From the NCBI RefSeq assembly GCF_023208195.1, contig NZ_CP060034.1, positions 3,100,001 through 3,164,000 on the forward strand: DNA of 64,000 bases, in the 5' to 3' direction. This DNA comes from Nocardioides sp. InS609-2 (GTDB lineage Bacteria; Actinomycetota; Actinomycetes; Propionibacteriales; Nocardioidaceae). Positions within the stretch are counted from its first letter, which is position 1. Each line of letters begins with the position of its first letter. Under the pieces are notes generated by a model that worked only from the letters and a program-made list of their open reading frames with translations, ran no database searches and had not been told where the DNA came from. Positions 32,431 to 59,362 of the stretch are shown piece by piece. A program made the position numbers and the translations under genes.

Positions 32431-33203
32431 GCCTGCTGGCGGCCGACATCGGCAACAGCTACACCGTCTTGGGCCTCCTCGACGGTGACGAGGTCGCGTG
32501 CCACTGGCGGGTGGCGACCGACGAGCGTCGTACCTCCGACGAGTGGGCAGTCCTCGTGCGCAGCTTGCTGGCCGACTCCGACAAGCTGGATGCCGTCAGC
32601 GGCATCGCCGTCTGCGCGACGGTGCCGTCGGTGCTGCACGAGTGGCGCGAGATGCTCGGCCGCCACTTCGCTGACGTGCCCGCCGTCGTGGTCGAGCCGG
32701 GCGTGCGCACCGGAGTGCCCGTCCTGATGGACAACCCCCGCGAGGTCGGGGCTGACCGCATCATGAACGCCCTCGCCGCGCTGCGCCTCTACGGCGGCCC
32801 GGCGATCGTCGTCGACTTCGGCACCGCGACGACGTTCGACGTGGTGAGTGCTGCCGGACAGTACGTCGGCGGCGCCATCGCCCCGGGCATCGAGATCTCG
32901 CTCGAGGCACTGGGCAGACGGGGCGCGCAGCTGCGCAAGGTCGAGCTCGTGCGACCGCGCTCGGTGATAGCCAAGAACACCGTCGAGGCGCTGCAGTCGG
33001 GGATGCTCTTCGGCGTCGCGTCGCAGGTCGAGGGCATCGTGTCGCGGATGATCGCAGAGCTCGGCGTCGCCGCCGAAGCCGTGTCCATCATCGCCACCGG
33101 TCACCTAGCGCCGCTCGTGCAAGCCGAGTGCAGCTGCTTCACGGAGTACTCCCCGTGGTTGACCCTCCAGGGCCTGCGGCTTGTGTACGAACGCAACTCC
33201 TGA
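32427..33203 (+). CDS. coaX: Type III pantothenate kinase
   Basis: A 258-residue ASKHA-fold kinase that phosphorylates pantothenate, the entry step to CoA. The first motif is LLAADIGNSYTVLGL, followed by GADRIMNALAA, VVDFGTATTFDVV and GGAIAPGIEISLEAL. Coupled to nadC by ATGA, it links the panCD products to CoA. It is the last gene of the DUF2520-panCD-nadBC-coaX operon. Confidence 0.95.
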   Translation: MSLLAADIGNSYTVLGLLDGDEVACHWRVATDERRTSDEWAVLVRSLLADSDKLDAVSGIAVCATVPSVLHEWREMLGRHFADVPAVVVEPGVRTGVPVLMDNPREVGADRIMNALAALRLYGGPAIVVDFGTATTFDVVSAAGQYVGGAIAPGIEISLEALGRRGAQLRKVELVRPRSVIAKNTVEALQSGMLFGVASQVEGIVSRMIAELGVAAEAVSIIATGHLAPLVQAECSCFTEYSPWLTLQGLRLVYERNS

Positions 33204-39728: not shown

Positions 39729-40639
39729 GTGCTCACCCCGTTGGCTACGGGAGCGTTCGAGAACGCCACCGTGTGGTTCGCCTCCGAGGGCGGCGACCCG
39801 CCCGCTGACCTCGGTCCGGTGCTCGTGGTCCAGGACCGGGCGGGGCTGACCTGGCTCGGGCGTGACGAGCTCCCAGTCGGTCACATATGCCGGTCGGTCG
39901 GCGCGACGTCGCACCTGGCCGTGGTCTCCCGTGCTCGAGGGATGTTCTGCGCCGCGGTGCCCGGTGGCGCGCTGGCCGACGGATGGCTCACGATCGGGAC
40001 CCACACGCTGCAGCACGGCGAGCAGGTCAGCCTGGGACCCGAGGGGCTCGCGACTCCGCGTGGCACCATCCCGGTCGCGCGTCCACGGTCCATGCAGGTC
40101 GCGAGCAGTGCCTGCATGGTGCGCGGCCTCGACCTCTACTGCACTGCTCCCAGCGTGGACGAGCTCGCCTCGTCGCACCATCGAGGTGCGTCGGTGTCGG
40201 CAGCATCCGCCTCGAGCACCTCGTGGTCGGGACGCCCGCCCAGAGGCTCGTCGCTCCGTTGCTCCAGGAGCTGTTCTTGCACGGCCGTGACGGCGAGGAC
40301 GCAGGCATGGACGCCGGGTGCCGGCTGGCTGACGTCTTGACGGCAGGTCTGGTGACGGTGCTTGAGGAGGCCGGACGCCTAGGCCTGCATGTGGTGGTGA
40401 GGTTGCCTGACCTCGATCTCCAGGAGCTGCTCGAGCCGACGGAGCTCAAAGCGGTGGCTGCAGGGCCGACCGGAGACCTGCTGGTCCTGGGCGGCGCCAA
40501 CCTGTGGTCGCAGGTGCCCGCCCTCTATCCGCCGATCCTGGCCCCATACACCGTGCGGCCGTGGCGGCACGCAGCGCGACGGGGCGCCGTGACCGCGGTG
40601 TTGCCCTACGTCTCGGAGGTCGCCCAGCCGATCCGGTAG
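39729..40639 (+). pseudogene. Frameshifted remnant of an unknown gene
   Basis: A GTG at 39729 opens a protein-like frame (LTPLATGAFENATVWFASEG onward) that loses coding character near 40175. Coding-like sequence resumes in other frames (GSIRLEHLVVGTPAQRLVAP, then GRLGLHVVVRLPDLDLQELL) until 40639. Two small shifts would join them. No conserved domain is recognised. The end coincides with the junction to the FG-GAP fragment on the other strand. Confidence 0.4.
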
Positions 40640-40890
40640 CCTCCGCCCGATTGGTTGTCGAGGTTGGCGAGGTCGACGGCGGTGCCGGTGGCTTTTCCCC
40701 AGACGACGTAGACGCTGCCCGCGTCGGTGCGCCCTCCGTAGTCGGACCAGGGCGCACCGACCAAGAGGTCGTCCTTGCCGTCGCCGTTGATGTCGCCGGC
40801 ACCCGCCACCGAGGTGCCTGCTTCGTCGTTGGTGACAGCGCCGATGATCTGGAAGCCCTGTCCCGCGGTCACCGGTGGCGCGCCAGCTAC
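40620..40890 (-). pseudogene. Internal fragment of an FG-GAP (integrin-like) repeat protein
   Basis: The minus strand encodes GFQIIGAVTNDEAGTSVAGA followed by GDINGDGKDDLLVGAPWSDY and AGSVYVVWGKATGTAVDLAN, a textbook FG-GAP repeat with a Ca-binding D-x-N-x-D-x-x-D loop. Similarity stops abruptly on both sides and there is no start codon or signal sequence, so about one and a half repeats of a larger surface protein remain here. It overlaps the remnant at 39729-40639. Confidence 0.65.
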
Positions 40891-40939
40891 TCGCGTCGCG
40901 CTGAACTGACGGCCAGGTCGTGTCCAATCAGAGCCGCAG

Positions 40940-41440
40940 TCAGTCGAATTCGTCGCCCTGTGAGAGCAGGAACTTGCGGAGCAGGTTTGCGAATGTCTGG
41001 ATCTCGGTCGCGTCCAGCGCAGCAAGCATCTTGTGCTGGTTGTCGACGTGGTGCCCGACCACGTCATCGACCAGGGTCGCGCCCCGCGATGTCAGCGAAA
41101 GGAGCAGCTGACGGCGGTTTGCCGGGTTGGTCTCCCGATGTACCAGCCCGCGTTCCACGAGACGGTCGATCCGGTGCGTCATCGCCGCCGATCCGACCAT
41201 CGTCATGCCCGCCAGCTGACCCGAGGTCAGCGGACCATCGGCGCGTGCGCGACGCAGCGTGGCGATCACGTCGAACTCCCAGGGCTCGAGCCCGAACTGG
41301 TTCATGAACTGTCGGAGGTCAGCATGCGCCATTCCGCTGGCCCGGTTGAGTCGACCCATCACGCCCATTGCGCTGACGTCTAGGTCGGGGCGCTCTCTGT
41401 TCCACTGCTCCAAGATGTTGTCGACTACGTCGCGTTTCAT
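40940..41440 (-). CDS. MarR-family transcriptional regulator
   Basis: A 166-residue winged-helix regulator. The DNA-binding region is LTSGQLAGMTMVGSAAMTHR (recognition helix, about residues 71-90), followed by the wing sequence REtNPANRRQLLLSLT and the C-terminal dimerisation helix. AAGGAA precedes the ATG. It is divergent from the biosynthetic operon, with a consensus-like promoter and a palindrome between them, so it most likely represses that operon and itself and is released by a small ligand, possibly the product. Confidence 0.9.
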   Translation of the reverse strand: MKRDVVDNILEQWNRERPDLDVSAMGVMGRLNRASGMAHADLRQFMNQFGLEPWEFDVIATLRRARADGPLTSGQLAGMTMVGSAAMTHRIDRLVERGLVHRETNPANRRQLLLSLTSRGATLVDDVVGHHVDNQHKMLAALDATEIQTFANLLRKFLLSQGDEFD

Positions 41441-41498: not shown

Positions 41499-41512
41499 GT
41501 TCGTTAGCGAAC
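41499..41512. promoter_or_regulatory. Candidate MarR operator
   Basis: GTTCG-TTAG-CGAAC is a perfect inverted repeat just downstream of the predicted transcription start. A related half-site TCGAAC lies 4 bases upstream of it. Binding here would block transcription. Confidence 0.55.
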
Positions 41513-41528
41513 ACTACGAGGTGAAACA

Positions 41529-42197
41529 GTGGTCATCATGAGTGTCGCCGAAGCGGTCGCCGCGCGTCGATCCGTCCGGGACCTGTCGGCACGACCTGTG
41601 CCCGCTGAGCTCTTTCACCGAGTGGCCACGCTGGCTATGGAGGCACCCTCAAGCTGGAACCACCAGTCGCGCTCGATGGTGATCGTCACCGACCCGACTG
41701 TTCGTGAAGACCTCATCCAGGCAACTGGAGGTCAGAGGGTTGCAGCCGCGGCGCCAGCTTTGTTTGTCTTCGTGGGCGAGTTTGACGACCCGAAGTTGGA
41801 CCGCTCGGCTGTGCACGACGCGGCCATCTCGCGGGGGGCGTGGACACCCGACTACTCCCGCGGCTCGGCCAGGGCCGCGGTGCGGTTCCAGCAGGACCTC
41901 AAGGACCGCGGCCTCCTTCGCGAGTACGCCGTTAAGGACGCGATGATCGTGGCGTCGTTCGCGATGCTCGTCGCCCAGGCCGAGGGGTTGGCCACCGCGC
42001 CCATGAACGGCTGGGACGAGGAGCAGGTCAAGAAGGCCATCGGCATCGACGACAGGGATGACCTCGTAATCGCCCTGGTGATGGCTGTCGGCTACGCCGA
42101 CCAGCTGCCTGCGCACCCGGGCCGCCTGAGCCACCAGCACATTTTCGACAGCACGTACGGGCGCCGGTTCGGCGTCTCCAAGCACATCGAGAACTAG
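41529..42197 (+). CDS. Nitroreductase-family FMN oxidoreductase
   Basis: A 222-residue member of the nitroreductase fold. RRSVRDLSARPVP near residue 13 is the FMN-phosphate Arg motif, APSSWNHQSRSMVIV follows as the second FMN contact, and the C-terminal GWDEEQVKKAIGI with VIALVMAVGYAD is the family end. Such enzymes reduce or dehydrogenate small molecules with flavin. As first gene of the operon it may act on the ring made by the NRPS. It starts with GTG and has GAGGTG 6 bases upstream. An ATG three codons later is less well placed. Confidence 0.85.
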   Translation: MVIMSVAEAVAARRSVRDLSARPVPAELFHRVATLAMEAPSSWNHQSRSMVIVTDPTVREDLIQATGGQRVAAAAPALFVFVGEFDDPKLDRSAVHDAAISRGAWTPDYSRGSARAAVRFQQDLKDRGLLREYAVKDAMIVASFAMLVAQAEGLATAPMNGWDEEQVKKAIGIDDRDDLVIALVMAVGYADQLPAHPGRLSHQHIFDSTYGRRFGVSKHIEN

Positions 42198-42205
42198 GGG
42201 AATCC

Positions 42206-42877
42206 ATGAAGAACCAGATCCAGGTAGCCGGAATCATCGACAAAGGCGAGGCCGACCTCTTGGTCGAGTGCGGTGTCGACTGGCTCGGCTTCCCGTTGCG
42301 CCTGCCGTCCGGCAAGAACGACATCAGCGAGGACGACGCGCGGGCCATCATCCGCAACCTGCCGACCGACCGAGCCGGCGTGCTGATCAGCTACCTCACC
42401 GTCGCGACCGAGGTGGCGGAGTTCTGCGATGAGCTGGGCTGCTCGATCGTGCAGCTGCACGGTGACGTGACCCCAGCCGAGCTCGCTACGCTGAAGCAGC
42501 TGCGCCCGAACCTGCAGGTGCTGAAGTCGCTGGTGGTCCGCGAGAACAACCTCGCGGAACTGCTGGCCCAGGTCGACGAGAGCCAGGAATTTGTCGACAT
42601 GTTCATCACCGACACGTTCGACCCTGCCACCGCGGCCAAGGGTGCCACGGGCAAGACCCACGATTGGTCGGTCAGTGCCGAGCTCGCAGCCAGGTCGGAC
42701 AAGCCGTTGATGCTGGCCGGTGGACTGACGCCCGAGAACGTGGCCGAAGCGGTCCGCGTCGTACGTCCCGCAGCGGTCGACGCGCACACCCTCCTCGAGG
42801 GCGCCGACGGTCGTAAGGACCGCGACAAGGTAGTCCGCTTCGTCCAGGAGGCTCGGAATGCCTTCGCTACGCTCTGA
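42206..42877 (+). CDS. TrpF-like (phosphoribosylanthranilate isomerase fold) protein lacking the catalytic Cys
   Basis: A 223-residue TIM barrel clearly related to TrpF: VQLHGDVTPAEL, ITDTFDPATAAKGATGKTHD with the acid Asp, AGGLTPENV and a G-R-K-D end. In TrpF the first strand reads K-I-C-G, with Cys as the general base. Here it is V-A8-G, and the phosphate/substrate Arg of the S-K-R-Y-I loop is replaced (G-K-N-D-I). It is therefore unlikely to be the tryptophan enzyme. It may carry out another aldose-ketose or ring reaction on a phosphoribosyl compound. It overlaps the next gene by 20 bases. No trp genes are nearby. Confidence 0.75.
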   Translation: MKNQIQVAGIIDKGEADLLVECGVDWLGFPLRLPSGKNDISEDDARAIIRNLPTDRAGVLISYLTVATEVAEFCDELGCSIVQLHGDVTPAELATLKQLRPNLQVLKSLVVRENNLAELLAQVDESQEFVDMFITDTFDPATAAKGATGKTHDWSVSAELAARSDKPLMLAGGLTPENVAEAVRVVRPAAVDAHTLLEGADGRKDRDKVVRFVQEARNAFATL

Positions 42878-43574
42878 GAGCGCTGGCGGCGCGGCACTGA
42901 GCGAGGTCAGCGAGTTTGTCGGCCACCCGCGAGTGCACGTGTTGCCGGCAACCCCTGCTCTCCTGGCAGCCCACACTCTCATCCGGGACCGGGAGGCCAG
43001 CCGCGAGGTGTTCACCACGCATTCGCGCCGCGTCTTCAGGATGCTGCTCGAGGCGGCGGTGGGGCTGCTGCCCAGCGAGCGGAACGCTGTCCTGACCCCG
43101 GCTGGACACGTGTTCGAGGGCTTGGTCGTCACCGAGAAGGCTTGTGCCGTCTCGGTCGTCCGTGCCGGTGAGAGTCTTGAGTCTGAGCTGTGGGCGGTTG
43201 TCCCAGGCATGCGGTTGGGCAAGATCTTGATCCAGCGCGACAAGTCGACCAAGCAACCCCGCCTCTACTACTTCCACCTCCCTCCGGACATGGAGCATCA
43301 GCACGTCTTGCTGCTCGAGCCTATGCTCGCCACCGGTGGTTCGCTCCTAGCCGCTCTCGATGTCCTCGCCGAGGCGGGCACCCCGAGTTCAAGCGTCATC
43401 GCGGTGAACGTGATGTCTTCCCCTCCGGGCCTGGAACGAGTCCTGGACGAGCACCCCGATCTGACCATCGTCACCTCATCGGTGGAACGCGACCTGGACG
43501 AAAACGCCTTCATGGTGCCTGGGATCGGCGACTTCGGTGACCGGTACTTCGGGACGGACGTCGCCAGGCCATGA
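42858..43574 (+). CDS. Uracil phosphoribosyltransferase-like protein
   Basis: A 238-residue homologue of Upp. The PRPP loop is LLLEPMLATGGSLLAAL (Glu in place of the usual first Asp) and the base-binding end is VPGIGDFGDRYFGT (Phe in place of Ala in G-D-A-G-D-R). The N-terminus HVLPATPALLAAHTLIRD corresponds to the HPLI-type start. Housekeeping Upp makes UMP from uracil and PRPP. The two substitutions and its place in a biosynthetic operon suggest a different base or a reversed or partner role with the PsuG homologue. GGAGG stands before the ATG. ATGA overlap with the exporter gene. Confidence 0.8.
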   Translation: MPSLRSESAGGAALSEVSEFVGHPRVHVLPATPALLAAHTLIRDREASREVFTTHSRRVFRMLLEAAVGLLPSERNAVLTPAGHVFEGLVVTEKACAVSVVRAGESLESELWAVVPGMRLGKILIQRDKSTKQPRLYYFHLPPDMEHQHVLLLEPMLATGGSLLAALDVLAEAGTPSSSVIAVNVMSSPPGLERVLDEHPDLTIVTSSVERDLDENAFMVPGIGDFGDRYFGTDVARP

Positions 43575-44488
43575 GCAAACTCTCACCCAGTGACCTGTCG
43601 CTCACCGCCTTCGCGCCAATCGTATGGGGCTCGACCTACCTGGTCACCACGCAGTTCCTCCCTGAGGACCGTCCCCTGCTCGCCGCGACGGTCCGAGCCC
43701 TGCCAGCCGGCCTGTTGCTGATGCTGGTGACACGCACGCTGCCACACGGGATCTGGTGGTTGAAGACCGCGGTGCTGGGCGCGCTGAACATCGGCTTGTT
43801 CTTCTTCCTGTTGTTCGTTGCCGCGTACGAGTTGCCCGGCGGGGTCGCCGCGCTTGTCATGTCGGTGCAGCCGTTGTTCGTGCTGCTGCTTGGTGCTGTC
43901 CTTCTCGGGGCGAGGATACGAACGGGGCATGTCATTGCATGCGCCATGGGTGCCCTGGGTGTGGGTCTTCTCGTTCTTCGCTCCGAAGCCACACTCACGA
44001 CTGTCGGTGTCCTTGCTGGCCTGGGCGGCGCATTGAGCATGGCCGCGGGAATTGTGCTCACCAAGCGGTGGGGACGCCCGCCCGGCACGGGTCTCTTGGG
44101 CTTCACCGGCGTTCAGCTTGCGTTGGGCGGCGCCCTGCTGCTGCCTGCCATGGTGTTCCTTGAGGGCCTGCCACCGAAGATCACCGGAACCAACGTCGCG
44201 GGCTTTTCGTATCTTGCCGTGATCGGCGCTCTCATCGCGTACACGGTGTGGTTCCGCGGGATTGAACGGCTGCCGGCGCTGGTGGTGTCGTTCCTGGGCT
44301 TCTTCAGTCCGCTGACCGCGGCCATCCTCGGCTTCGTCTTTCTCAGCCAGTCCCTGACCTTGGTCCAGGTCGCCGGCGCCGCGCTCATCGTTGCCTCCAT
44401 CGTGGTCACTCAGCGCACACCTTCCTTGTCGGGCCCGCAGCCTGGCCCGCCAGAACCGGCTGTGCCGGTCTCGGGCGCGGTCAGCTAG
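43571..44488 (+). CDS. EamA/DMT-family transporter
   Basis: A 305-residue protein with ten hydrophobic helices in two EamA repeats, beginning FAPIVWGSTYLVTTQFLP with the family's W-G-S-x-x motif and a second repeat around GFSYLAVIGALIAYTVWFRG. DMT exporters of this type pump out amino-acid derivatives and drug-like metabolites. It is embedded in the operon between the phosphoribosyltransferase-like gene (ATGA overlap) and the NRPS, so it is the likely exporter of the product or a self-resistance factor. The C-terminal tail is Pro-rich. Confidence 0.88.
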   Translation: MSKLSPSDLSLTAFAPIVWGSTYLVTTQFLPEDRPLLAATVRALPAGLLLMLVTRTLPHGIWWLKTAVLGALNIGLFFFLLFVAAYELPGGVAALVMSVQPLFVLLLGAVLLGARIRTGHVIACAMGALGVGLLVLRSEATLTTVGVLAGLGGALSMAAGIVLTKRWGRPPGTGLLGFTGVQLALGGALLLPAMVFLEGLPPKITGTNVAGFSYLAVIGALIAYTVWFRGIERLPALVVSFLGFFSPLTAAILGFVFLSQSLTLVQVAGAALIVASIVVTQRTPSLSGPQPGPPEPAVPVSGAVS

Positions 44489-44539
44489 CCGGTTCTTTTT
44501 CGTTCAATCATCGGAGAATCAACCGAAATCGGGGAAGAT

Positions 44540-47500
44540 ATGTCTACCAACAAACATGGCGTCGCCACTTTGATGGACATGCTGGATGAACACGCGCGTC
44601 ATTGTCCGGACGCGGTAGCCGTAACGCATGGCGATCAACAGTTGACCTTCCATGAGCTCAAGGTCCGCAGCACCGCCTTGGCGCTTGAGCTGATGCAGCG
44701 CCCTTCCTCGTCCACCATTGACGACCGCATCATCGGAGTGCTCCTTGAACACTCCATTGACTTGGTTGTAGCTGTCTGGGGGGTGCTGCGCTCGGGGGCC
44801 GCCTATCTGCCGCTCGAGCCTGAATACCCCGAAGACCGGCTGGCCTACATGGTCGCGGACTCCGGTGCATCTGTCGTGCTCACCAGTCCCGGCCTCTCGG
44901 ACAACCTGCGTGACGCCCTGCCACACAACATCCAGATTCGGGGCCTTGCGGGTGCGGCTGACCTGCCTGAACATGCCCGGGATCTGCCAGAGCCCCGGCC
45001 CCAAGACTTGGCGTACGTCATCTACACCTCCGGCAGCACTGGCCGTCCCAAGGGGGTGGCAATCTCGCACGAGGCCATCACGCACCAGATTCGCTGGCTG
45101 CAGGCCCAAGACCACCTGGGCGCGCGGACAACCATCCTCCACAAGACACCCATCAGCTTTGACGCCGCGCAGTGGGAGTTGCTGGCCAACGCCACCGGCG
45201 CTCGGATCGTGCTCGGCAAGTCGGGGCTCTACCGTGACCCCGGCGCGTTGATCGACGCCATGCGCGACAATGACGTCACAACTTTGCAGGCAGTGCCAAC
45301 TCTTCTCCGCGCCCTGGTCGAGACTGAACGCCTCGATACCGTGCCGAGCCTGAGGCGGGTTTACAGCGGTGGGGAGGCGCTCAGCGCGGTCCTGGCTCGC
45401 GACCTGCTGGCCGCGCTGCCGGGCATTGCGCTGACCAATCTGTACGGGCCCAGCGAGTGCACGATCAACGCGACCAGCCACACACTCACCCCGAGCGACA
45501 TTCCACTGAGTGGACCCACAGTGCCCATCGGCGTGCCAGTGGACGGCTGCGAGGTGCTGGTGGTAGGTCCGCACCTGGAGCCGCTGCCGGTTGACCAAGA
45601 GGGCGAGTTGTTGATCGCGGGTCCCCAGCTGGCGCGCGATTACCTTCACCGCCCCGACCTGACTCAGGAGAAGTTCGTTCCGGTGCCCGCTGCGGGCGGC
45701 AAGCGCTACTACCGCACTGGTGACATCGTCAGGCGGGACAGCGAAGGCGTCATGTACTTCGTCGGCCGCCGCGACAGCCAGGTCAAGCTGCACGGGCACC
45801 GGATCGAGCTCGACGAGGTCAGCCACCGGATCGAAGAACACCCTTGGGTGCGCAAGGCCGCCACGCTGGTGACCGAAGACGCCCGCACGGGGCGCGACGT
45901 CTTGGTCGCCTGCATCGAAATGGACCCCAAGCAGGCCGCCCTGATGGACCAGGGAAACCACGGGTCGCACCACCAATCCAAGGCAAGCCGGGTGCAGGTC
46001 CGTGCCCAGTTGTCCAACCCGGGCGTCCGCACGGACGATGAGCTGAGGGACCTACCTGTCTTGCCGCTGCTTCACCAGGCAGGCACACAGCATCAGCGTC
46101 GCACGGCCTTCTCCCGCAAGACCTACCGCAACTACAACGGTGGCGCCGTAACCCGCGACAACATCCTCGGTGCTCTCGTCGAGCCCCAGCGCCCCCACTA
46201 CCGTCGCGAGCTCTCAGACCTGACCTACGAAGGACTCAGCGAGCTGTTGCGCTGGTTCGGTCAGTTCCACAGCCAAGAGCGCCTCCTGCCCAAGCTCGCA
46301 TACGCCTCGCCCGGAGCCCTGTACGCCACCCAGCTCTTCGTCACCGTCCGCAACACCGCTGACGTAGCGGCGGGTACGTACTACTACCACCCGATCAACC
46401 ACCAGCTCCACCTGGTGGAGGGGGTCGACCCCGGTCATGCCGACTCCGGAGATCCGCCAGGGCTGACGTTCCACTTCCTGGGCCGGCAGGAGGCCATCGA
46501 GACGGTCTACAAGAACAACGTCCGCGAGGTGCTTGAGATCGAGGTAGGTCACATGCTCGGCACGCTTGAGGAAGCGCTTATCGATCAAGGTCTGTCACTG
46601 CGTCCGTTGGGTTTCGAGCAGTCCACGGCGGCGAGCCTTCAACCAGGGGTCTCGGACACGTATCTGGGCTCTTTCGAGGCTGTGCCCCAAGGCGAGGGCC
46701 ATTTCCCCGACATTGTCACCTACTACGTGCAGGCCCACGCAGAAGGCGTCGCAGAACTGCCGTCCGGCCTGTACCGGCTTGAGGACGGCGACCTGACCAG
46801 GCTCGGGCCGGACCTTATCGAGCCGCGCCACGTCATCGCCATCAACCAGGAGGCGTACAACCGGTCGCGATTCGGAATCTCCATCGTCACCCGCAGCCCA
46901 GGTCAGTGGCTCGAGTATGTGGCCCTTGGGCGTGCACTTCAGCGTGTGCAAAGCAACAAGCACGGCCTCGGTCTGATGGCGTCGGGATACAGCTCAAAGA
47001 CCGGCCACCCCCTTCCAGCCTCGCTGCGCCTGGACGCACTTCTCCGGGATGCAGGCGAGACTCCCGGGGCGTCCTACTTCGCAGTCGGAGGCAAGGTCTC
47101 CCAAAGCCAGATCGGCAGCGATGGCATGGACGAGGACGAGGTCCACATGCGCGGACCCGCCGAGATGATCAAGGACGACCTGAGGCGGGCCCTGCCGTAC
47201 TACATGGTCCCCGCCACGACCCTGGTCCTTGACCGGCTGCCACTGAGCCCGAACGGCAAGATCGATCTCCGCTCCCTGGCTGACACCGTCCAACTCAAAC
47301 AAGCAACATCGGGCAGGCAAATCGTCGAGCCCCACAACGACACCGAGCGGCGGCTCGCTGGCCTGTGGTCACGATTCCTCGGGTATGAAGATGTGTCCGC
47401 CGAGGACGACTTCTTCGCCATGGGCGGAGACTCGCTGACCGCGGTGAGCCTGGTCAACCGCATCAACCATGACCGCGATGCCGGCCTGAAGGTCCAAACC

Positions 47501-48514
47501 CTGTTTAGGTACCCGCGACTGCGGGACCTGGCCGCGCAGGTGGACGCGACCGGGCATGACGACTCCCGCCTGATTGTGCTGAACAGATGCACCACTGGCC
47601 GCGCGGCCTTCTGCTGGCCCGGCCTGGGTGGCTCACCCATGAATCTGACCGGGCTCGGCAAGTCCATGTCCGCCAGGCCGGTCTTCGGAGTTCAGGCTTG
47701 GGGTATCAATGCCGGCGAGGAGCCTATCGCCAGCATCGGCTCGATGGCGCGGGCCGACATCGACCAAATTCAGCGCGTGCAGCCGCAAGGCCCATACACG
47801 CTGATGGGATATTCCTTCGGAGCCCGAGTGGCGTTCGAGGCGGCGTGGCAGCTGGAGAAGGCAGGCCACGTCGTGGACAACCTGCTGCTGATCTGCCCCG
47901 GCAACCCTCAGGTGGAAGGCGACGGGCCCAGCGAGGGCCGCAGCGCCAGCTACGACGACGCCAAGTACGTGCGCATCCTATTCTCGGTGTTCGCCAGCAC
48001 GGTCCGCGGCCACCAGGTTGAGCAATGCCTGCGTGAGGTCCATGACGAGGAAACCTTCGTGGTCTTCATGGCCGCGACCATGCCTGGGCTCGAAGGCGAC
48101 GTGATCCGGCGAATCGTGCGGATCGTCGAGCGAACCTTCCAATTCGAGTACACCTTCGAGGAGCTCTCGGGGCGCCAGCTCAACGCGCGGGTCAGCGTTC
48201 TGAAGGCCACTGGGGACGACTACTCCTTCCTCGACGCCACCCCGGAGTACTCCGCGGCAGCACCGACCGTGCTGACTCTCGAAGGAGATCACTACTCCCT
48301 GCTGGGAGAAGACATCGACGAGCTCGCCGAGGCGGTCCGCGCACAGCTCGTTGAGCCACTGGGCGAAGCGCTCAGCACCGATGAGCTGCGGCACCTGGCT
48401 GCGGCACGAACTTCCGCGGTCTGCGAAGCACGCTCGGTGCCACGACCCGCCCCCCATCCGGGGCCACCAAGGAGCGAACGTGAGTACCAGCCCACCCATC
48501 GCCCTCAGTCCTGA
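44540..48514 (+). CDS. Indigoidine-synthetase-type NRPS (A with inserted Ox domain, T, TE)
   Basis: A 1324-residue single-module synthetase. The adenylation domain (A3 YVIYTSGSTGRPKGV near residue 157, A5 NLYGPSECTIN, A7 YRTGDIVRR) is interrupted after A8 by an FMN-dependent SagB/nitroreductase-like oxidase domain of about 330 residues starting near FSRKTYRNYNGGAV. A10 (LPLSPNGKIDLRSL) resumes near residue 900, then a carrier domain with Ser965 in MGGDSLTAV and a thioesterase with Ser1092 in GYSFG. This is the exact order of IndC/BpsA, which cyclises and oxidises L-glutamine to the monomer of the blue pigment indigoidine. My reading of the specificity code is D-A-W-Q-Y-G-L-I-N-K, close to that of Gln-activating homologues. 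GGGGAAG precedes the ATG. It overlaps the next gene by 35 bases. Confidence 0.92.
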   Translation: MSTNKHGVATLMDMLDEHARHCPDAVAVTHGDQQLTFHELKVRSTALALELMQRPSSSTIDDRIIGVLLEHSIDLVVAVWGVLRSGAAYLPLEPEYPEDRLAYMVADSGASVVLTSPGLSDNLRDALPHNIQIRGLAGAADLPEHARDLPEPRPQDLAYVIYTSGSTGRPKGVAISHEAITHQIRWLQAQDHLGARTTILHKTPISFDAAQWELLANATGARIVLGKSGLYRDPGALIDAMRDNDVTTLQAVPTLLRALVETERLDTVPSLRRVYSGGEALSAVLARDLLAALPGIALTNLYGPSECTINATSHTLTPSDIPLSGPTVPIGVPVDGCEVLVVGPHLEPLPVDQEGELLIAGPQLARDYLHRPDLTQEKFVPVPAAGGKRYYRTGDIVRRDSEGVMYFVGRRDSQVKLHGHRIELDEVSHRIEEHPWVRKAATLVTEDARTGRDVLVACIEMDPKQAALMDQGNHGSHHQSKASRVQVRAQLSNPGVRTDDELRDLPVLPLLHQAGTQHQRRTAFSRKTYRNYNGGAVTRDNILGALVEPQRPHYRRELSDLTYEGLSELLRWFGQFHSQERLLPKLAYASPGALYATQLFVTVRNTADVAAGTYYYHPINHQLHLVEGVDPGHADSGDPPGLTFHFLGRQEAIETVYKNNVREVLEIEVGHMLGTLEEALIDQGLSLRPLGFEQSTAASLQPGVSDTYLGSFEAVPQGEGHFPDIVTYYVQAHAEGVAELPSGLYRLEDGDLTRLGPDLIEPRHVIAINQEAYNRSRFGISIVTRSPGQWLEYVALGRALQRVQSNKHGLGLMASGYSSKTGHPLPASLRLDALLRDAGETPGASYFAVGGKVSQSQIGSDGMDEDEVHMRGPAEMIKDDLRRALPYYMVPATTLVLDRLPLSPNGKIDLRSLADTVQLKQATSGRQIVEPHNDTERRLAGLWSRFLGYEDVSAEDDFFAMGGDSLTAVSLVNRINHDRDAGLKVQTLFRYPRLRDLAAQVDATGHDDSRLIVLNRCTTGRAAFCWPGLGGSPMNLTGLGKSMSARPVFGVQAWGINAGEEPIASIGSMARADIDQIQRVQPQGPYTLMGYSFGARVAFEAAWQLEKAGHVVDNLLLICPGNPQVEGDGPSEGRSASYDDAKYVRILFSVFASTVRGHQVEQCLREVHDEETFVVFMAATMPGLEGDVIRRIVRIVERTFQFEYTFEELSGRQLNARVSVLKATGDDYSFLDATPEYSAAAPTVLTLEGDHYSLLGEDIDELAEAVRAQLVEPLGEALSTDELRHLAAARTSAVCEARSVPRPAPHPGPPRSEREYQPTHRPQS

Positions 48515-49448
48515 GGTTGCTGCGGCGTTACACGACGGCACTCCGGTGGTTGCGCTCGAGTCCAACGTGATCACCCACGGTCTTGAATACCCCCACAATG
48601 CCGAGGCCGCGATCAAGGTGCAGGCAGCGGTGCGTCTTGGCGGTGCGGTCCCGGCCACGATCGGCATCGACGCCGGCCGCGTTCTCATCGGCCTGGACGC
48701 CGAACAGATCGAGCGGTTCGCCACCAGCCAGAAGATCCCCAAGATCAGCAGCAGAGACATGGGCCACGCGCTGGCTGCCGGTGGCATGGGCGCGACCACG
48801 GTTGCGTCATCGGTTGTGGCCGCGCACGCCGCCGGCATCAAACACTTCTGCTCAGCCGGAATCGGCGGAGTTCACCACGGCGTGCAAGACACCATGGACA
48901 TCTCCTCAGACCTGATCCAGTTCACCCGAACTCCGGTGATGGTCGTCTGTGCGGGAGCAAAGAACATCCTCAACCTGCCGCTGACGTTGGAGTTCCTGGA
49001 GACCCACTGCGTCCCGGTCGTCTCTTATCGATCGGACGACTTTCCGGCGTTCTACTGCCGGTCCAGCGGCTCGCGCAGCCCCCAACGCGTTGACGACCCA
49101 GTGCTGCTGGCAAAGACGGCACAGCAGCACTGGTCGATGGGCAACGCGACAGCCGTCCTGGTCACGACCCCGCCGCGGGAAGAGGATGCCATCGACTTCG
49201 ACGAAGCCCAATGCGCAGTCGAGGACGCATTGCGTGAGGCCAGCACCATCGGTATCACCGGCAAGGACGTCACCAAGTTCCTCATGCGGTCCGTCGACCG
49301 CGCCACCGACGGACGCTCATCGAAAGCCAACATGGCCGTCCTGGTCAGCACCGCCGAAGTCGCCGGCCACCTCGCGGCGGCGCACGCAACACACCTCGCC
49401 GAATCTGCATCCATGCAAGACCGTGACAAGGAGATCTCCCATGCCTGA
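48480..49448 (+). CDS. Pseudouridine-5'-phosphate glycosidase family protein (C-glycosynthase candidate)
   Basis: A 322-residue PsuG/IndA/AlnA-type protein. PsuG reversibly makes a C-C bond between uracil and ribose 5-phosphate. Retained features are Glu in VALESNVITHG, Lys and Asp in PKISSRDMGHAL, the Schiff-base Lys161 in VCAGAKNILNL, the metal Asp in DTMDISSDL and Asn in SKANMAVLVS. Several neighbours differ from housekeeping PsuG (ESN for EST, VTK for VTP), as expected of a specialised homologue. The GTG has AAGGAG upstream and lies within the end of the NRPS gene. Pairing with an IndC-type NRPS is known from indigoidine and minimycin loci. It ends overlapping the ene-reductase gene by 8 bases. 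Confidence 0.88.
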   Translation: MSTSPPIALSPEVAAALHDGTPVVALESNVITHGLEYPHNAEAAIKVQAAVRLGGAVPATIGIDAGRVLIGLDAEQIERFATSQKIPKISSRDMGHALAAGGMGATTVASSVVAAHAAGIKHFCSAGIGGVHHGVQDTMDISSDLIQFTRTPVMVVCAGAKNILNLPLTLEFLETHCVPVVSYRSDDFPAFYCRSSGSRSPQRVDDPVLLAKTAQQHWSMGNATAVLVTTPPREEDAIDFDEAQCAVEDALREASTIGITGKDVTKFLMRSVDRATDGRSSKANMAVLVSTAEVAGHLAAAHATHLAESASMQDRDKEISHA

Positions 49449-50520
49449 TCTGTTCGAACCCACCACATTCGGTGCGCTACGCCCGGCAAACCGGCTCGTC
49501 ATGGCACCTATGTCGCGCAACCGGGCCAACGCCGACGGCACACCAACAGAGTTGATGGCTACCTATTACGCGCAGCGGGCCGACGCCGGTCTGATCATCA
49601 CCGAGGGCACCCAGCCCACGCAGGTCGGGCAGGGCTTCATGAATACCCCCGGCCTCCACAACCAAGCCCAAGCCGCGGCTTGGCGCGAAGTGACGGATGC
49701 AGTCCATGCGCGCGGCGGACTCATCGCAGTCCAGCTCATGCACGCCGGCCGCATCGGACACCCGTCCCTGTACCCCAGCGCTCACCAGTCCGTCGCCCCC
49801 TCATCCATCCCGGCGGCCGGTTCCTGCTTCACACCGGACGGGCTCATGGACTACCCCGAGCCGCGCGCGCTCACGCCGGAGGAGATCAACGAGGAGGTCA
49901 ACGACTTCGTCCGCGCGGCACGCCTGGCCATGGATGCCGGGTTCGACGCCGTCGAGATCCACGGCGGCAACGGGTTCCTGCTGCACCAGTTCCTGTCCGC
50001 CAACACGAACCACAGAGACGATGAGCACGGCGGCGACCCGAAGCGCCGCGCAAAGCTCACCGAACAGGTCGTGCACGCCGTGGCCGACGCCATCGGGCCG
50101 GACCGGGTGGGCCTGAGGATCTCTCCGGGAAACCCGTACAACGACATCGACGAAGGCGACGTGCAGCAGACCTATGCGGCTCTGCTGGAGGCTCTTCCGC
50201 CCATTGCATTCCTGCACGTACTGGAGACCGTTGACCCCGCGTACACGCGGATGGTGCGGTCGCTATGGGCAGGTCCGATGATCGTCAACCCCAGTCGCCA
50301 GGTTCCTGCCGGACAGTGGGACCCCGAGGTGGCGGAACTGCTCGACACGGGTCTGGCGCAAGCAGTGTGCGTCGGTTCGGCATTCTTGGCCAACCCGGAC
50401 CTGATCGAACGGATCCACAGCGGCGGCCCGTACAACGAGCCCGACGAGGCAACCTTCTACTCCGGTGGCGCCCAGGGATACACCGACTACCCCACGCTTC
50501 CGCGAGCCATGGCGACATGA
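49441..50520 (+). CDS. Old yellow enzyme-family flavoprotein with Phe at the proton-donor site
   Basis: A 359-residue FMN TIM barrel. LFEPTTFGALRPANRLVMAP is the usual start, with VQLMHAGRIGHPS, VEIHGGNGFLLHQFL and PDLIERI near the end. The substrate-anion pair is present (His174, Asn177), but residue 179 is Phe where ene-reductases of the OYE1 type have the Tyr that protonates the alkene. Classical alkene reduction should be weak, and dehydrogenation, aromatisation or reduction of another group is more likely. Its ATG overlaps the PsuG-type gene by 8 bases. Confidence 0.86.
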   Translation: MPDLFEPTTFGALRPANRLVMAPMSRNRANADGTPTELMATYYAQRADAGLIITEGTQPTQVGQGFMNTPGLHNQAQAAAWREVTDAVHARGGLIAVQLMHAGRIGHPSLYPSAHQSVAPSSIPAAGSCFTPDGLMDYPEPRALTPEEINEEVNDFVRAARLAMDAGFDAVEIHGGNGFLLHQFLSANTNHRDDEHGGDPKRRAKLTEQVVHAVADAIGPDRVGLRISPGNPYNDIDEGDVQQTYAALLEALPPIAFLHVLETVDPAYTRMVRSLWAGPMIVNPSRQVPAGQWDPEVAELLDTGLAQAVCVGSAFLANPDLIERIHSGGPYNEPDEATFYSGGAQGYTDYPTLPRAMAT

Positions 50521-50570
50521 TGGTCGCCCTCTTCGACCTTGAGGGAACACGGCTGGGCGCCCGCACATGA
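50517..50570 (+). pseudogene. Seventeen-codon ORF resembling the start of a HAD phosphatase
   Basis: An ATG overlapping the previous stop (ATGA) opens MMVALFDLEGTRLGART and then a TGA. The pattern A-L-F-D-L-D-G-T-L is the first catalytic motif of HAD phosphatases, here with Glu for the second Asp. A HAD phosphatase (IndB, AlnB) normally accompanies PsuG-type C-glycosynthases. The piece may be all that remains of that gene, but its short length makes chance possible. Confidence 0.4.
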
Positions 50571-50590
50571 TCATCACTGAGATGACTGGG

Positions 50591-50608
50591 GAGACCCGAG
50601 CCGGTCTC
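50591..50608 (+). terminator. Small hairpin before the PPTase gene
   Basis: GAGACC-CGAGCC-GGTCTC, a 6-bp stem within the 95-base gap that separates the last two genes of the operon. It may weaken transcription into the PPTase gene. Confidence 0.3.
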
Positions 50609-50639
50609 TCCCGGGGTGCATGACGGATGGCTTGAAGCG

Positions 50640-51353
50640 ATGTCTTTTCAGAGAGTCGACAAAGAGTCCACGGCTCAGCTGCGCATCATCAAGCCTTCGG
50701 CCTTGAGCCAGCTTGCTCTCGGCACTGCTCGCAGCTTCCTCAGCGGGCCCGAGCTGATCCGCTGCGACAACCTAGTCTCGGGCAAGGCGCGACGAAACTT
50801 CACCGTTGGCCACGCGCTGGCCCGCATTGTCGTGGCCGAGCAGTTGGCCCTCGAACTCGCCCAGGTGACCCTCGTCCAGACGTGCTCCACCTGCGGTGGC
50901 CCACACGGTCGTCCCCACGTCGTCGACCTGCCCGTCCACGTCTCGTTTGCCTACGCAACCGACGCCGTGGCGGTGGCAGCCAGTCGATGCGGGCCCATCG
51001 CCGTCGACTGTGCAGACTTCCCTCCGCAGCCGCACCACCGCGACGCCATGGTCCGACTTCTTCCCATCGGTGAGAACAACGGCGACGACAGAGAGGCCGT
51101 GAAGCTGTGGACCATCCACGAGTGCTTGGTGAAGCTGGGCGGGCGTGAATTGGATGATCAGAAGCCGGTGCACAGGTCGCCTCACCTCCAGCAACCGGAC
51201 ATTGTCCTCGTCGAGGGCAACTACTTCAGATCCATTGCTATGCCCGCTACCGTCGCAACAGTCGGGTCCCCAGACGCGTTCGACTTGACCATCAGCACGG
51301 AGGTGCCCCGATCCGCTGCATTCACCCCGGTGCCAACCGACGCACTGCCGTGA
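50640..51353 (+). CDS. 4'-Phosphopantetheinyl transferase (Sfp-like, divergent)
   Basis: A 237-residue protein with the two Sfp signatures in relaxed form: GPIAVDCADF for the metal-binding G-V-D region (about residue 120) and KLWTIHECLVKLGGREL for W-x-x-x-E-x-x-x-K (about 155). HVSFAYATDAVAVAASR replaces the N-x-S-H-S block. It would load phosphopantetheine from CoA onto Ser965 of the NRPS. The ATG is the likely start, and an in-frame GTG at 50616 would add eight residues. It closes the operon, and the IS element begins 60 bases after it. Confidence 0.72.
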   Translation: MSFQRVDKESTAQLRIIKPSALSQLALGTARSFLSGPELIRCDNLVSGKARRNFTVGHALARIVVAEQLALELAQVTLVQTCSTCGGPHGRPHVVDLPVHVSFAYATDAVAVAASRCGPIAVDCADFPPQPHHRDAMVRLLPIGENNGDDREAVKLWTIHECLVKLGGRELDDQKPVHRSPHLQQPDIVLVEGNYFRSIAMPATVATVGSPDAFDLTISTEVPRSAAFTPVPTDALP

Positions 51354-51410: not shown

Positions 51411-51421
51411 CTAGTGGTCCG
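51411..51421 (+). repeat. Left terminal inverted repeat of the IS630 element
   Basis: CTAGTGGTCCG here and its exact reverse complement at 52553-52563. The TA within each end is the duplicated target dinucleotide. The TAG of the transposase stop is read from this repeat. Confidence 0.8.
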
Positions 51422-52508
51422 GATTTGAAGTCTTCATCCGGTTGGCTTTGGTGAGGATCTCGTCGGCGGTCTTGGTCCAGACGAAGGGGTGGGAGCGTTC
51501 GTTCCAGCAGTCGATGTAGGTGCGGATCTTGGTGTTGAGGTCCTTGACCGAGGTGAACACGCCGCGGCGGATGGCTTGGCGTTCGATGAGGGAGAACCAG
51601 ACCTCGACGAGGTTCATCCAGGAGGCGTGGGTCGGGGTGAAGTGGATCTTGAAGCGCGGGTTCTCGATGAGCCAGTTCTTCACGTTGGTGTGTTTGTGGG
51701 CGGCGTAGTTGTCCATCACCAGGTGCAGATCGACGGGCTGGCCGGTCTCGTCGACGACGTCGCGGTAGGCGCGTTCGACCTGCTTGAGGAACGCGAGGAA
51801 CTCTTGGTTGCGGTGCCGCGGCTTGAGAGCGGCGGTGACCTTCCCGGTGGCGATCTCCAGCGCGGCGAACAAGGTGGTGGTGCCGTGGCGGACGTAGTCG
51901 TGAGAGCGGCGTTCGACGAGCCCGGGTTGCATCGGAAGGACCGGCATGGTGCGGTCCAGTGCCTGGATCTGGGACTTCTCGTCCACGCACAGCACGATCG
52001 CGTTCTCTGGCGGGTTCAGGTACAGCCCGACGATGTCGATGACCTTGGCCTCGAGTTCGGGATCGGTGGAGAACCGGAACGACTCCGAGCGCCACGGCTT
52101 GACCCCGTAGGAACGCCAAGCCTCCGCGACGGTGTAGGCGCTGACCTTCAACCGAGCCGCCAACAGCCGCGTGGACCAGTGCGTCACGCCGAGCTTCTTC
52201 GGCGGGGGCTTCAGTGTCTCGGCCACGATTTTGCGATGGTCGATCGTGCGCGGACGGCCCGGACGCTGCCGGTCGAGGAGCCCGGCCATGCCCTTGCCCT
52301 GGTAGCGGCCCCGCCACTGCAGCACCTTCTGACGGCCGCACCCGACGAGCTCGCAGATCTGGTCGTTCGGCACCCCGTCGGCTGCCAGCAACACGATCCG
52401 AGCCCGTTGAGCCGCACCAGCCGAGACCGTCGAGGAGCGAGTCAGTCGCTCGAGCTTGTCCCGGTCACCATCACGCAGCACCAGGGCCGGAGCAGGTCGA
52501 TTCGCCAT
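51411..52508 (-). CDS. IS630-family transposase
   Basis: A 365-residue DDE transposase without frameshift. The N-terminal helix-turn-helix region (AAQRARIVLLAADGVPNDQI; GLLDRQRPGRPRTID) is followed by the catalytic triad: Asp in IVLCVDEKSQIQALDR, Asp in LHLVMDNYAAHK and Glu in NLVEVWFSLIERQ. The D-E-K-S-Q-I-Q-A-L and D-N-Y-A-x-H-K blocks identify the actinobacterial IS630 type. It appears intact and possibly active. The stop codon lies in the left terminal repeat. Confidence 0.93.
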   Translation of the reverse strand: MANRPAPALVLRDGDRDKLERLTRSSTVSAGAAQRARIVLLAADGVPNDQICELVGCGRQKVLQWRGRYQGKGMAGLLDRQRPGRPRTIDHRKIVAETLKPPPKKLGVTHWSTRLLAARLKVSAYTVAEAWRSYGVKPWRSESFRFSTDPELEAKVIDIVGLYLNPPENAIVLCVDEKSQIQALDRTMPVLPMQPGLVERRSHDYVRHGTTTLFAALEIATGKVTAALKPRHRNQEFLAFLKQVERAYRDVVDETGQPVDLHLVMDNYAAHKHTNVKNWLIENPRFKIHFTPTHASWMNLVEVWFSLIERQAIRRGVFTSVKDLNTKIRTYIDCWNERSHPFVWTKTADEILTKANRMKTSNPDH

Positions 52509-52562
52509 GCGCCCATGATTTCACTTCATCAACCCGATGACTATTTCCCACGCGGACCACTA
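51412..52562. mobile_element. Complete IS630-family insertion sequence
   Basis: The element runs from GTGGTCCG at 51414 to CGGACCAC at 52560 and is flanked by TA at 51412-51413 and 52561-52562, the target duplication expected of IS630/Tc1-mariner transposition. It carries one transposase gene. It sits between the PPTase gene and the second EEP copy, at the right end of the accessory region. Confidence 0.87.
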
Positions 52563-52563
52563 G
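52553..52563 (-). repeat. Right terminal inverted repeat of the IS630 element
   Basis: CGGACCACTAG, exact reverse complement of 51411-51421. Confidence 0.8.
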
Positions 52564-53806: not shown

Positions 53807-56398
<2,592 letters not shown>

Positions 56399-58276: not shown

Positions 58277-59362
58277 TCAGACGTAGCGCTCGAGGATGCT
58301 CGACTCGGCCAGCCGGGAGAGTCCCTCGCGCACGCTGCGGGCCCGGAGCTCGCCCACGCCCTCGACTGCCTGGAGGTCGTCGATGCCGGCGGAGAGCAGC
58401 TGTTGGAGTCCGCCGAAGTGCTCGACCAGCCGGTCGACGACGGTGCTGGGGAGCCGCGGCACCTTGGCCAGCAGCCGGTAGCCGCGCGGGGCGGCGGCAC
58501 CGTCGAGGTGCTCGCCGCTGCCGAGCGTGAGCGCCCGGGCCACCGAGCCGGGGTCGACCAGGTCGGTGGGGGAGAGCGCCTCGAGCTGGGCCAGCAGCTC
58601 CTGGGGTGAGCGACCTCGTCGCCCGCCGGGCAGGTAGTCCCGGATCACCAGCTCGCGCTCGGCGTCGACGCCGGTCACCAGCTCCTCGAGCTGGAGCGAG
58701 AGCAGCCGGCCGTCGGTGCCGAGCTCGAGCACGTAGTCCTCGATCTCGCGCGCGATGCGGGTGACCATCTCGAGCCGCTGGGCGACCACGGCCACGTCGC
58801 GGACGGTGACGAGGTCCTCGATCTCCAGTGCCGACAGCGTCGAAGACACCTCGTCCAGGCGCAGCTTGTAGCGCTCGAGCGTCGCCAGAGCCTGGTTGGC
58901 GCGGGAGAGGATCTGGCCGGCCTCCTCGAGGACGTGCCGGGTGTCGCCGACGTACGCCGCGATGATCTGCATCGACTGGCTGACCGAGATGACCGGGTAC
59001 CCGGTCTGCTTGGCCACCCGCTCGGCGGTGCGGTGCCGGGTGCCGGTCTCCTCGGAGGGGATCGTGTGGTCGGGCATCAGGTGCACCGCCGCACGCTGGA
59101 TGCGGGTGATGTCGCGGTCGAGGATGATCGCGCCGTCCATCTTGGCCAGCTCTCGCAGGCCGGTGGCGGTGAAGGGCACGTCGAGCACGAAGCCGCCGGT
59201 GGCGATCGACTCGACCAGCTTGTCCTGGCCGATCACGATCAGCGCGCCGGTGCGGCCGCGCAGGATGCGCTCCAGGCCGTCCCGCAGCGGGGTGCCCGGC
59301 GCGATAGACGCCAGTGTCGCGCGCAGGCGCAGCGTCTCCTCCGAGCGTTCGGTGCCGACCAC
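58277..59362 (-). CDS. disA: DNA integrity scanning diadenylate cyclase DisA
   Basis: A 361-residue octameric protein that condenses two ATP to cyclic di-AMP and scans DNA. The cyclase domain has MDGAIILD (the DGA motif, about residue 74) and GTRHRTAERVA (the RHR motif, about 106). A helical spine and a C-terminal helix-hairpin-helix domain (LLSAGIDDLQAVEGVGELRA) follow. It starts with GTG and has GGGGAG upstream. It lies 62 bases after radA on the same strand, the usual radA-disA pair. Confidence 0.96.
   Translation of the reverse strand: MVGTERSEETLRLRATLASIAPGTPLRDGLERILRGRTGALIVIGQDKLVESIATGGFVLDVPFTATGLRELAKMDGAIILDRDITRIQRAAVHLMPDHTIPSEETGTRHRTAERVAKQTGYPVISVSQSMQIIAAYVGDTRHVLEEAGQILSRANQALATLERYKLRLDEVSSTLSALEIEDLVTVRDVAVVAQRLEMVTRIAREIEDYVLELGTDGRLLSLQLEELVTGVDAERELVIRDYLPGGRRGRSPQELLAQLEALSPTDLVDPGSVARALTLGSGEHLDGAAAPRGYRLLAKVPRLPSTVVDRLVEHFGGLQQLLSAGIDDLQAVEGVGELRARSVREGLSRLAESSILERYV

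Follow-up and report, generated by a model that had tools for sequence, protein, structure and literature searches.

An operon in Nocardioides sp. InS609-2 raises the question of what is made by a gene cluster that joins an indigoidine-type (IndC-type) nonribosomal peptide synthetase (NRPS) to a PsuG/IndA C-glycosynthase-type enzyme, a uracil phosphoribosyltransferase (UPRT) and a protein resembling TrpF, and of what role the TrpF-like protein could have there. The operon lies in the 64,000 nucleotide stretch analysed here (contig NZ_CP060034.1, positions 3,100,001 to 3,164,000; referred to as the window) and consists of eight open reading frames (ORFs) on the + strand at 41529-51353, with the small gaps and overlaps typical of an operon. 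All eight were found as given in the initial annotation, and seven are backed by Pfam. The TrpF-like protein belongs to a conserved family without the catalytic Cys of TrpF, which is tied to IndC, PsuG and UPRT genes and nearly excludes the phosphatase found in sister clusters; this content looks new. For the whole proposed pathway, in which glutamine would be converted to an aminopyridinedione, C-ribosylated by PsuG, and the phosphoribosyl conjugate acted on by the TrpF-like protein, the probability is put at roughly 0.5.

TrpF binds a 5'-phosphoribosyl aromatic compound, an Asp acting as the acid that opens the ring and a Cys as the base that moves a proton, and an Arg holds the anthranilate. 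The TrpF-like barrel (42206-42877, + strand; Pfam PRAI, 2e-22) was modelled with a predicted local distance difference test (pLDDT) score of 92.7, its closest folds in the PDB are TrpF structures, and it shares with canonical TrpF the barrel fold and the motifs of the phosphoribosyl-phosphate site. However, the position of the catalytic Cys is Ala (Ala8) in 70/70 cluster-type sequences, i.e. those of 69 named loci and the window, and that of the anthranilate-binding Arg is Asp, Glu or Asn in all 70 (Asn38 in the window, Asp or Glu in its relatives), whereas both Cys and Arg are present in the seven canonical TrpF rows, of eight, that could be aligned. The Cys general base that characterises TrpF is therefore absent, while the general acid, Asp136, is kept in all 70. 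His85 is also invariant in the 70 sequences, as are Arg32, Asp39, His152 and His194, the last four of which are not invariant in the canonical rows.

The loss of the Cys would suit a non-catalytic protein, for binding or immunity, by which a toxic C-nucleotide is sequestered, and the TrpF-like protein does occupy the place of a phosphatase credited with self-resistance (PMC8724604). The invariance of Asp136 and the other five residues favours an active site, and sequestration is regarded as quite improbable. Alternatively, the logic of TrpD and TrpF could be copied: the UPRT would transfer phosphoribose from phosphoribosyl pyrophosphate (PRPP) to the ring or amino group of the aminopyridinedione, and the resulting N-riboside would be isomerised by the TrpF-like protein, yielding a ribulose derivative. 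The expected aglycone, an aromatic amine, would resemble anthranilate in this respect, and the UPRT gene is beside or near the TrpF-like gene in 69/69 named loci, but the residue at the position of the Amadori base is Ala throughout.

The family is rare. At E-values of 1e-40 or lower, it was found only in the window's own genome among 396 in a sample of the phylum, and in 13 of 392 genomes of a second sample, called Streptomyces here on the basis of sequences identical to those of named Streptomyces loci. All 7/7 cluster-bearing Pseudomonadota genomes checked have a stronger-scoring TrpF in addition to the TrpF-like gene, which is thus an extra PRAI copy there. In 7/9 cluster-bearing actinobacteria checked, including the window's genome, it is the sole PRAI gene. 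The TrpF-like gene is therefore no recent paralogue of a housekeeping gene. The UPRT of the cluster, for its part, is just 29% identical to the other strong UPRT match in the genome. The proposal that these two genes are merely housekeeping paralogues, set out beforehand as one of two findings that would refute the initial reading, was thus ruled out.

The initial annotation suggested a search for TrpF-like and UPRT genes together with IndC and PsuG, and the association was borne out. The named loci are 80 of the 96 matches of a pattern-based scan, in which contig ends truncate several loci; cluster counts exclude L077-L079, which have no cluster, and L080-L087, which are canonical TrpF by their residues and six of which adjoin a frame judged TrpB-like by eye. 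The 69 named loci counted, with L032 taken as a Rhodococcus, span two phyla, Actinomycetota and Pseudomonadota. A UPRT gene is present in 69/69, PsuG in 63/69 and an NRPS match of at least 400 bits in 63/69, all three being found with the TrpF-like gene in 61/69; counting two weak or cut NRPS matches, the NRPS is present in 65/69 and all three in 62/69. Five of the incomplete loci sit on contigs of 3-16 kb, and a synthetase with the oxidase (Ox) domain was found in 8/8 genomes searched, which comprised those of all loci where the synthetase is missing or weak and two others. Two Kitasatospora loci (L034 and L038) carry TrpF-like, UPRT, EamA, PsuG and Old Yellow Enzyme (OYE) genes but no IndC-type synthetase gene inside 10 kb; both genomes encode an Ox-domain synthetase at another site. 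Over 61 loci, including the window, the pairwise distances of TrpF-like, UPRT, NRPS and PsuG proteins are correlated (Spearman 0.57-0.87), the maximum in 500 permutations per pair being 0.33. The recurrence of this gene content in many genera, together with the correlated distances, indicates that the combination is not due to chance. All 13 Streptomyces-sample genomes with a TrpF-like gene are among the 62 (of 392) with an Ox-synthetase, and in 12 of the 13 the two lie within ~8 kb of one another.

For comparison, 69 stretches were taken from around the Ox-synthetase genes of the Streptomyces sample and the two others of the host's own family. In 47/69 stretches, none of the TrpF-like, UPRT, PsuG or HAD phosphatase genes was found. 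UPRT and PsuG genes occur with an IndB/MinC-type HAD phosphatase in 8/69, and with a TrpF-like gene and no HAD gene in 12/69; the remaining two stretches are two contigs of one genome with a split TrpF-type cluster. Thus, in this sample, PsuG and UPRT are always accompanied by either HAD or TrpF-like, never both and never neither. No HAD match or motif and no DUF4243 match was detected in the window at 34001-58000, the eight proteins being without a PF14027 match. One Streptomyces locus (L141:6182-7900), counted among the 47, falls in a TrpF-type clade and retains only an exporter, the synthetase and a UPRT remnant below the cut-off; hence the ribosyl module was apparently lost as a unit.

Clusters resembling that of minimycin are found within the HAD branch, since a Questin_oxidase (DUF4243) domain occurs in 5/8 HAD loci and is fused to HAD, as in MinC, in two. 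No DUF4243 match was found in the three other HAD loci, the 12 TrpF-type stretches, the window, the Corynebacterium aurimucosum plasmid locus described below (L122) or the 69 named loci. DUF4243 was discarded as a marker for this branch, because it is present in just five of the eight HAD loci and also in L140, an otherwise bare synthetase stretch that has a DUF4243 match without PsuG, UPRT or HAD.

Other genes also track the TrpF type. A PRPP synthetase gene is present in 10/12 TrpF-type, 0/8 HAD-type and 0/45 bare loci in the tree (TrpF-type versus HAD-type, Fisher p = 0.0007, uncorrected for ancestry). The corresponding figures are 9/12, 0/8 and 0/45 for OYE, and 7/12, 0/8 and 0/45 for nitroreductase. 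As PRPP synthetase occurs in many TrpF-type clusters, PRPP seems to matter in this branch, which keeps the TrpD-TrpF alternative alive. Against it, the UPRT is present in all eight HAD-type loci, which have no TrpF-like gene, and no alignment column distinguishes the UPRTs of TrpF-type loci from those of HAD-type loci with a cut of 85% on both sides. N-ribosylation followed by isomerisation is regarded as unlikely, though less so than sequestration.

Several observations weigh against the proposed pathway, or against the strength of the pattern on which it draws. A HAD gene is found in 3/71 TrpF-type loci (the 69 named loci, the window and L122), namely in a Millisia locus (L008), L039 and L070, with a weak fourth match in L017. 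In L008, which is near the window by its synthetase, the HAD gene follows OYE directly; in L070 the TrpF-like gene is ~6 kb off. Independent switches between TrpF and HAD number two on well-supported branches and four on all branches, and with so few, ancestry alone could produce the either/or pattern. Of the 13 TrpF-like sequences in the Streptomyces sample, five also occur in identical form among the named loci (five pairs or sets), so that the two counts are not independent. Ala-type TrpF-like proteins 47-53% identical to that of the window are encoded without the cluster on three contigs labelled as deltaproteobacteria or uncultured bacterium (L077:416-1099, L078:7013-7690 and L079:564-1244), in which no synthetase, UPRT or PsuG gene was found; an ancestral free-standing function is possible for these. 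The window is without the tautomerase gene that 51 of the 73 scanned loci have, and none was matched elsewhere in its genome in a search that had no positive control. Finally, Epibacterium ulvae U95, the sole Ox-synthetase of which is in a TrpF-type locus (L040), was reported to give indigoidine peaks by HPLC/MS (PMC7989816).

A single origin of the TrpF-type synthetases was also rejected, as the Ox-domain tree needs at least three label changes on starred branches. With HAD-bearing TrpF rows labelled apart there are six label changes; the label is nonetheless clustered. The trees were built without L009, L011, L015, L022, L034, L038, L045, L070 and the sampled stretches L172, L177 and L188, and L122, whose branch was very long in the first tree, was left out of the second.

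The synthetase (44540-48514, + strand; 1324 aa; AMP-binding, PP-binding and Thioesterase matches) has the single module that marks IndC/BpsA clusters, consisting of an adenylation (A) domain with inserted Ox, a thiolation (T) domain and a thioesterase (TE) domain. The Ox insert has no Pfam match, but residues ~471-867 align over their full extent with the Ox region of other IndC-type synthetases. The A-domain code, which bears on specificity for glutamine, was read by eye as DAWQYGLINK, as against DAWQFGLINK in Streptomyces albus (PMC3992020). The PsuG/IndA C-glycosynthase-type enzyme (48480-49448, + strand; Indigoidine_A, 2e-105) has a corrected start, a GTG at 48480 that overlaps the synthetase stop codon, and has AlnA as its best PDB match (2e-72), followed by PsuG. 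The active-site set of Glu, Lys, Asp, Lys and Asn, which are Glu31, Lys93, Asp149, Lys166 and Asn289 in E. coli numbering, is kept in 64/64 cluster PsuGs, including that of the window, and a C-phosphoribosyl aminopyridinedione would be expected. Together, the synthetase and a PsuG with its full active site make a C-ribosylated azaquinone a likelier product than plain indigoidine, in line with one of the possibilities raised in the initial annotation.

It is also conceivable that the end product is plain or alkylated indigoidine, with PsuG, UPRT and the TrpF-like protein merely clearing or salvaging toxic ribosylated by-products of the uracil-like precursor and ribose donors. The indigoidine peaks of E. 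ulvae U95 fit this, as do the 47 sampled IndC-type stretches in which none of the four module genes was found. The formula published for glaukothalin from other Rheinheimera strains (PMC2775678) corresponds to that of indigoidine with two dodecyl groups added, and the cluster occurs in four Rheinheimera loci. However, in minimycin the PsuG homologue takes part in biosynthesis (PMC8724604), E. ulvae fosmid 19F10, which carries the synthetase, was antibacterial but not blue, its authors suspecting another product and thinking that further indigoidine genes were absent (PMC3564156), and C. aurimucosum, which bears the core, is black (PMC2830990). In addition, PRPP synthetase genes in 22 of the 73 scanned loci suggest consumption rather than clearance. 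Clearance is a minority explanation, albeit the strongest of the alternatives considered. On a separate point, fosmid 19F10 is inactive against nematodes in Table 1 of PMC3564156 and is cited as active in PMC7989816.

The UPRT (42858-43574, + strand; UPRTase, 3e-65) has uracil phosphoribosyltransferases as its best PDB matches and includes the PRPP loop EPMLATGGS and the C-terminal motif, which has a uracil-binding role. A function like that of MinD is possible for it. The EamA-family exporter (43571-44488, + strand; Pfam EamA, 3e-32) has counterparts in 51/69 named loci and the nitroreductase-family flavoprotein (41529-42197, + strand; Pfam Nitroreductase, 2e-22) in 13/69. The OYE or NemA-like ene-reductase (49441-50520, + strand; Oxidored_FMN, 8e-67) has a corrected start, an ATG at 49441. 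No PRPP synthetase match was found in the window. A second accessory set, named by eye as DJ-1/PfpI-like, alpha/beta hydrolase and WrbA-like flavodoxin genes, was seen in actinomycete loci among L047-L073; it is present in 15-18 of the 73 loci, mostly those without OYE.

The last protein of the operon (50616-51353, + strand) has no match in Pfam, NCBIfam or the PDB. It is linked to PF01648 through three distant proteins (E-values of 7e-14 to 8e-8) and, as judged by these links, is a very divergent phosphopantetheinyl transferase (PPTase). Three near relatives occur on contigs of the same size as those with near TrpF-like proteins, and no match was found in the other TrpF-like loci.

In the pathway preferred here, the local PPTase would prime the synthetase, which would oxidise and cyclise L-glutamine to 3-aminopyridine-2,6-dione, as expected from its family. 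PsuG would then join ribose 5-phosphate to a ring carbon, a step for which the intact residues and the minimycin precedent speak. The UPRT may top up the uridine monophosphate (UMP) pool, as proposed for MinD, or handle the uracil-like base itself. The TrpF-like protein would work on the phosphoribosyl conjugate at the step where sister clusters use the HAD phosphatase; given that the acid is kept and that the Amadori base and anthranilate Arg are lost, ring opening with anomerisation or re-closure, or some other isomerisation, would be likelier than dephosphorylation or a classical Amadori reaction. The nitroreductase and ene-reductase may hold the azaquinone reduced or modify it, and the EamA protein would export the product, predicted to be a ribose-derived azaquinone, perhaps a soluble pigment of the indochrome type. 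Indochrome is a ribosylated azaquinone and a soluble pigment; its structure was not found in the open papers searched. A more far-reaching version is put forward only tentatively: a TrpF-fold enzyme may have been taken over for ring opening or isomerisation of the ribose in a C-nucleotide, as a C-linked counterpart to the reaction in tryptophan synthesis, giving a second, phosphatase-free branch of IndC/PsuG metabolism. Clusters filed under indigoidine, that of Streptomyces lavendulae CCM 3239 included, would then yield an antibiotic or pigment derived from ribose, indigoidine being a shunt product.

The setting of the operon is that of an island, and the cluster is taken to be a mobile one of the IndC, PsuG and UPRT kind, probably under MarR control. 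A divergent gene for a MarR-family regulator (40940-41440, - strand; Pfam MarR, 5e-10), overlooked in the initial annotation, is probably part of the unit. MarR-family matches occur in 32/69 named loci, where the gene often adjoins the TrpF-like or nitroreductase gene on the opposite strand. An inverted repeat read by eye, GTTCG-TTAG-CGAAC (41499-41512), is a candidate MarR operator; the repeat finder reported no repeat in this region, 5-nt arms falling under its set limit. An IS630-family element (51411-52563, - strand; transpos_IS630, 4e-74) borders the operon, starting 57 bases past the last stop codon, and has imperfect terminal repeats (51411-51444 and 52530-52563) with 34-nt arms that are 76% complementary. 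In a short frame at 40606-41067 (- strand), which overlaps the MarR gene, FG-GAP-like repeats were identified by eye (GAGDINGDGKDDLLVGAP); this frame may be what is left of a gene at the island's left border. Further left lies a gene for a type III pantothenate kinase (32427-33203), and genes for a ClpC-type ATPase (53807-56398) and DisA (58277-59362) lie to the right.

The host genome is a single contig of 4.52 Mb. The G+C content of the block is 65.0%, compared with 70.3% on either flank, and an Ox-domain synthetase is found in only 3/149 sampled genomes of the host's family, the window's own included; the other two are 43-44% identical to that of the window and belong to HAD-type loci. The nearest named relatives of the synthetase are from Aeromicrobium (83%), a Nocardioides metagenome-assembled genome (67%), Paenarthrobacter nitroguajacolicus (65%) and Millisia (61%), below which identity falls to 54%; one metagenome synthetase is 87% identical. 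The low G+C content, the rarity in the family and the distribution of the nearest synthetases fit horizontal gain, and the cluster was probably acquired in this way.

Indigoidine synthetases have found wide use as reporters and in dye production, and many of the loci described here pair them with ribosylating partners. The either/or pattern provides a testable prediction for a protein annotated for tryptophan synthesis that has no catalytic Cys. If true, it would mean an extra chemical step in C-nucleoside biosynthesis, and dozens of clusters in two phyla would be sources of new ribose-bearing azaquinones.

The combination was initially considered unfamiliar, a view that was not supported. In the open literature surveyed, with subscription papers and the original minimycin paper outside its range, the TrpF-like gene is given neither a place in a family of pigment clusters nor a chemical role. 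The core of the combination is nevertheless in print. A region of C. aurimucosum plasmid pET44827 with MarR, TrpF-like, phosphoribosyltransferase, NRPS and IndA genes was described in 2010, was linked to the black pigment of this species, and its two phosphoribosyl proteins were guessed to help activate the synthetase (PMC2830990). Like the window, pET44827 (L122) has MarR, TrpF-like, UPRT, IndC-type NRPS, PsuG/IndA and EamA genes, the TrpF-like proteins being 52.5% identical and the Ox regions only 35%. Unlike the window, it includes a tautomerase gene, and no nitroreductase or OYE gene was found in the stretch read. The plasmid is typed as mobilizable (PMC2830990).

For S. albus J1074, genes for IndA, IndB, a tautomerase, a transporter and a phosphoribosyl transferase are reported around the synthetase (PMC3992020), and in 2026 an indigoidine-like synthetase from Arthrobacter was expressed and gave blue E. 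coli (PMC13405713). Membership in the igi clusters of Leisingera and Vogesella was rejected, as the accessory genes given for Leisingera are of other families (PMC5014874). Plasmid pSA3239 of S. lavendulae CCM 3239 (L088) resembles the window in its TrpF-like, UPRT, EamA, PsuG, alkene reductase and synthetase (1283 aa) genes, and differs in having a PRPP synthetase, a separate tautomerase, the synthetase last and an adjoining Streptomyces antibiotic regulatory protein (SARP) gene. Its synthetase, the only Ox-synthetase of that genome, is presumably the product of the published blue-pigment gene of the strain. In E. ulvae U95 (L040), the TrpF-like, UPRT, EamA, NRPS, PsuG and OYE genes are in the same order as in the window, though a tautomerase gene is present and no nitroreductase was matched; from the strain and its single Ox-synthetase, L040 appears to be the published indigoidine gene set of U95.

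The closest precedent in chemical terms is the minimycin cluster, minA-D,T, which shares with the window an IndC-type NRPS, PsuG, UPRT (MinD) and an exporter, a set already published (PMC8724604). In that route, glutamine is activated, oxidised, cyclised and released, and the ring either dimerises to indigoidine or tautomerises before C-ribosylation by the PsuG homologue; the HAD domain then removes the phosphate, MinT exports the product and MinD is proposed to confer self-resistance via raised UMP (PMC8724604). The difference lies in MinC, the HAD-DUF4243 protein, in place of which the window encodes the TrpF-like protein.

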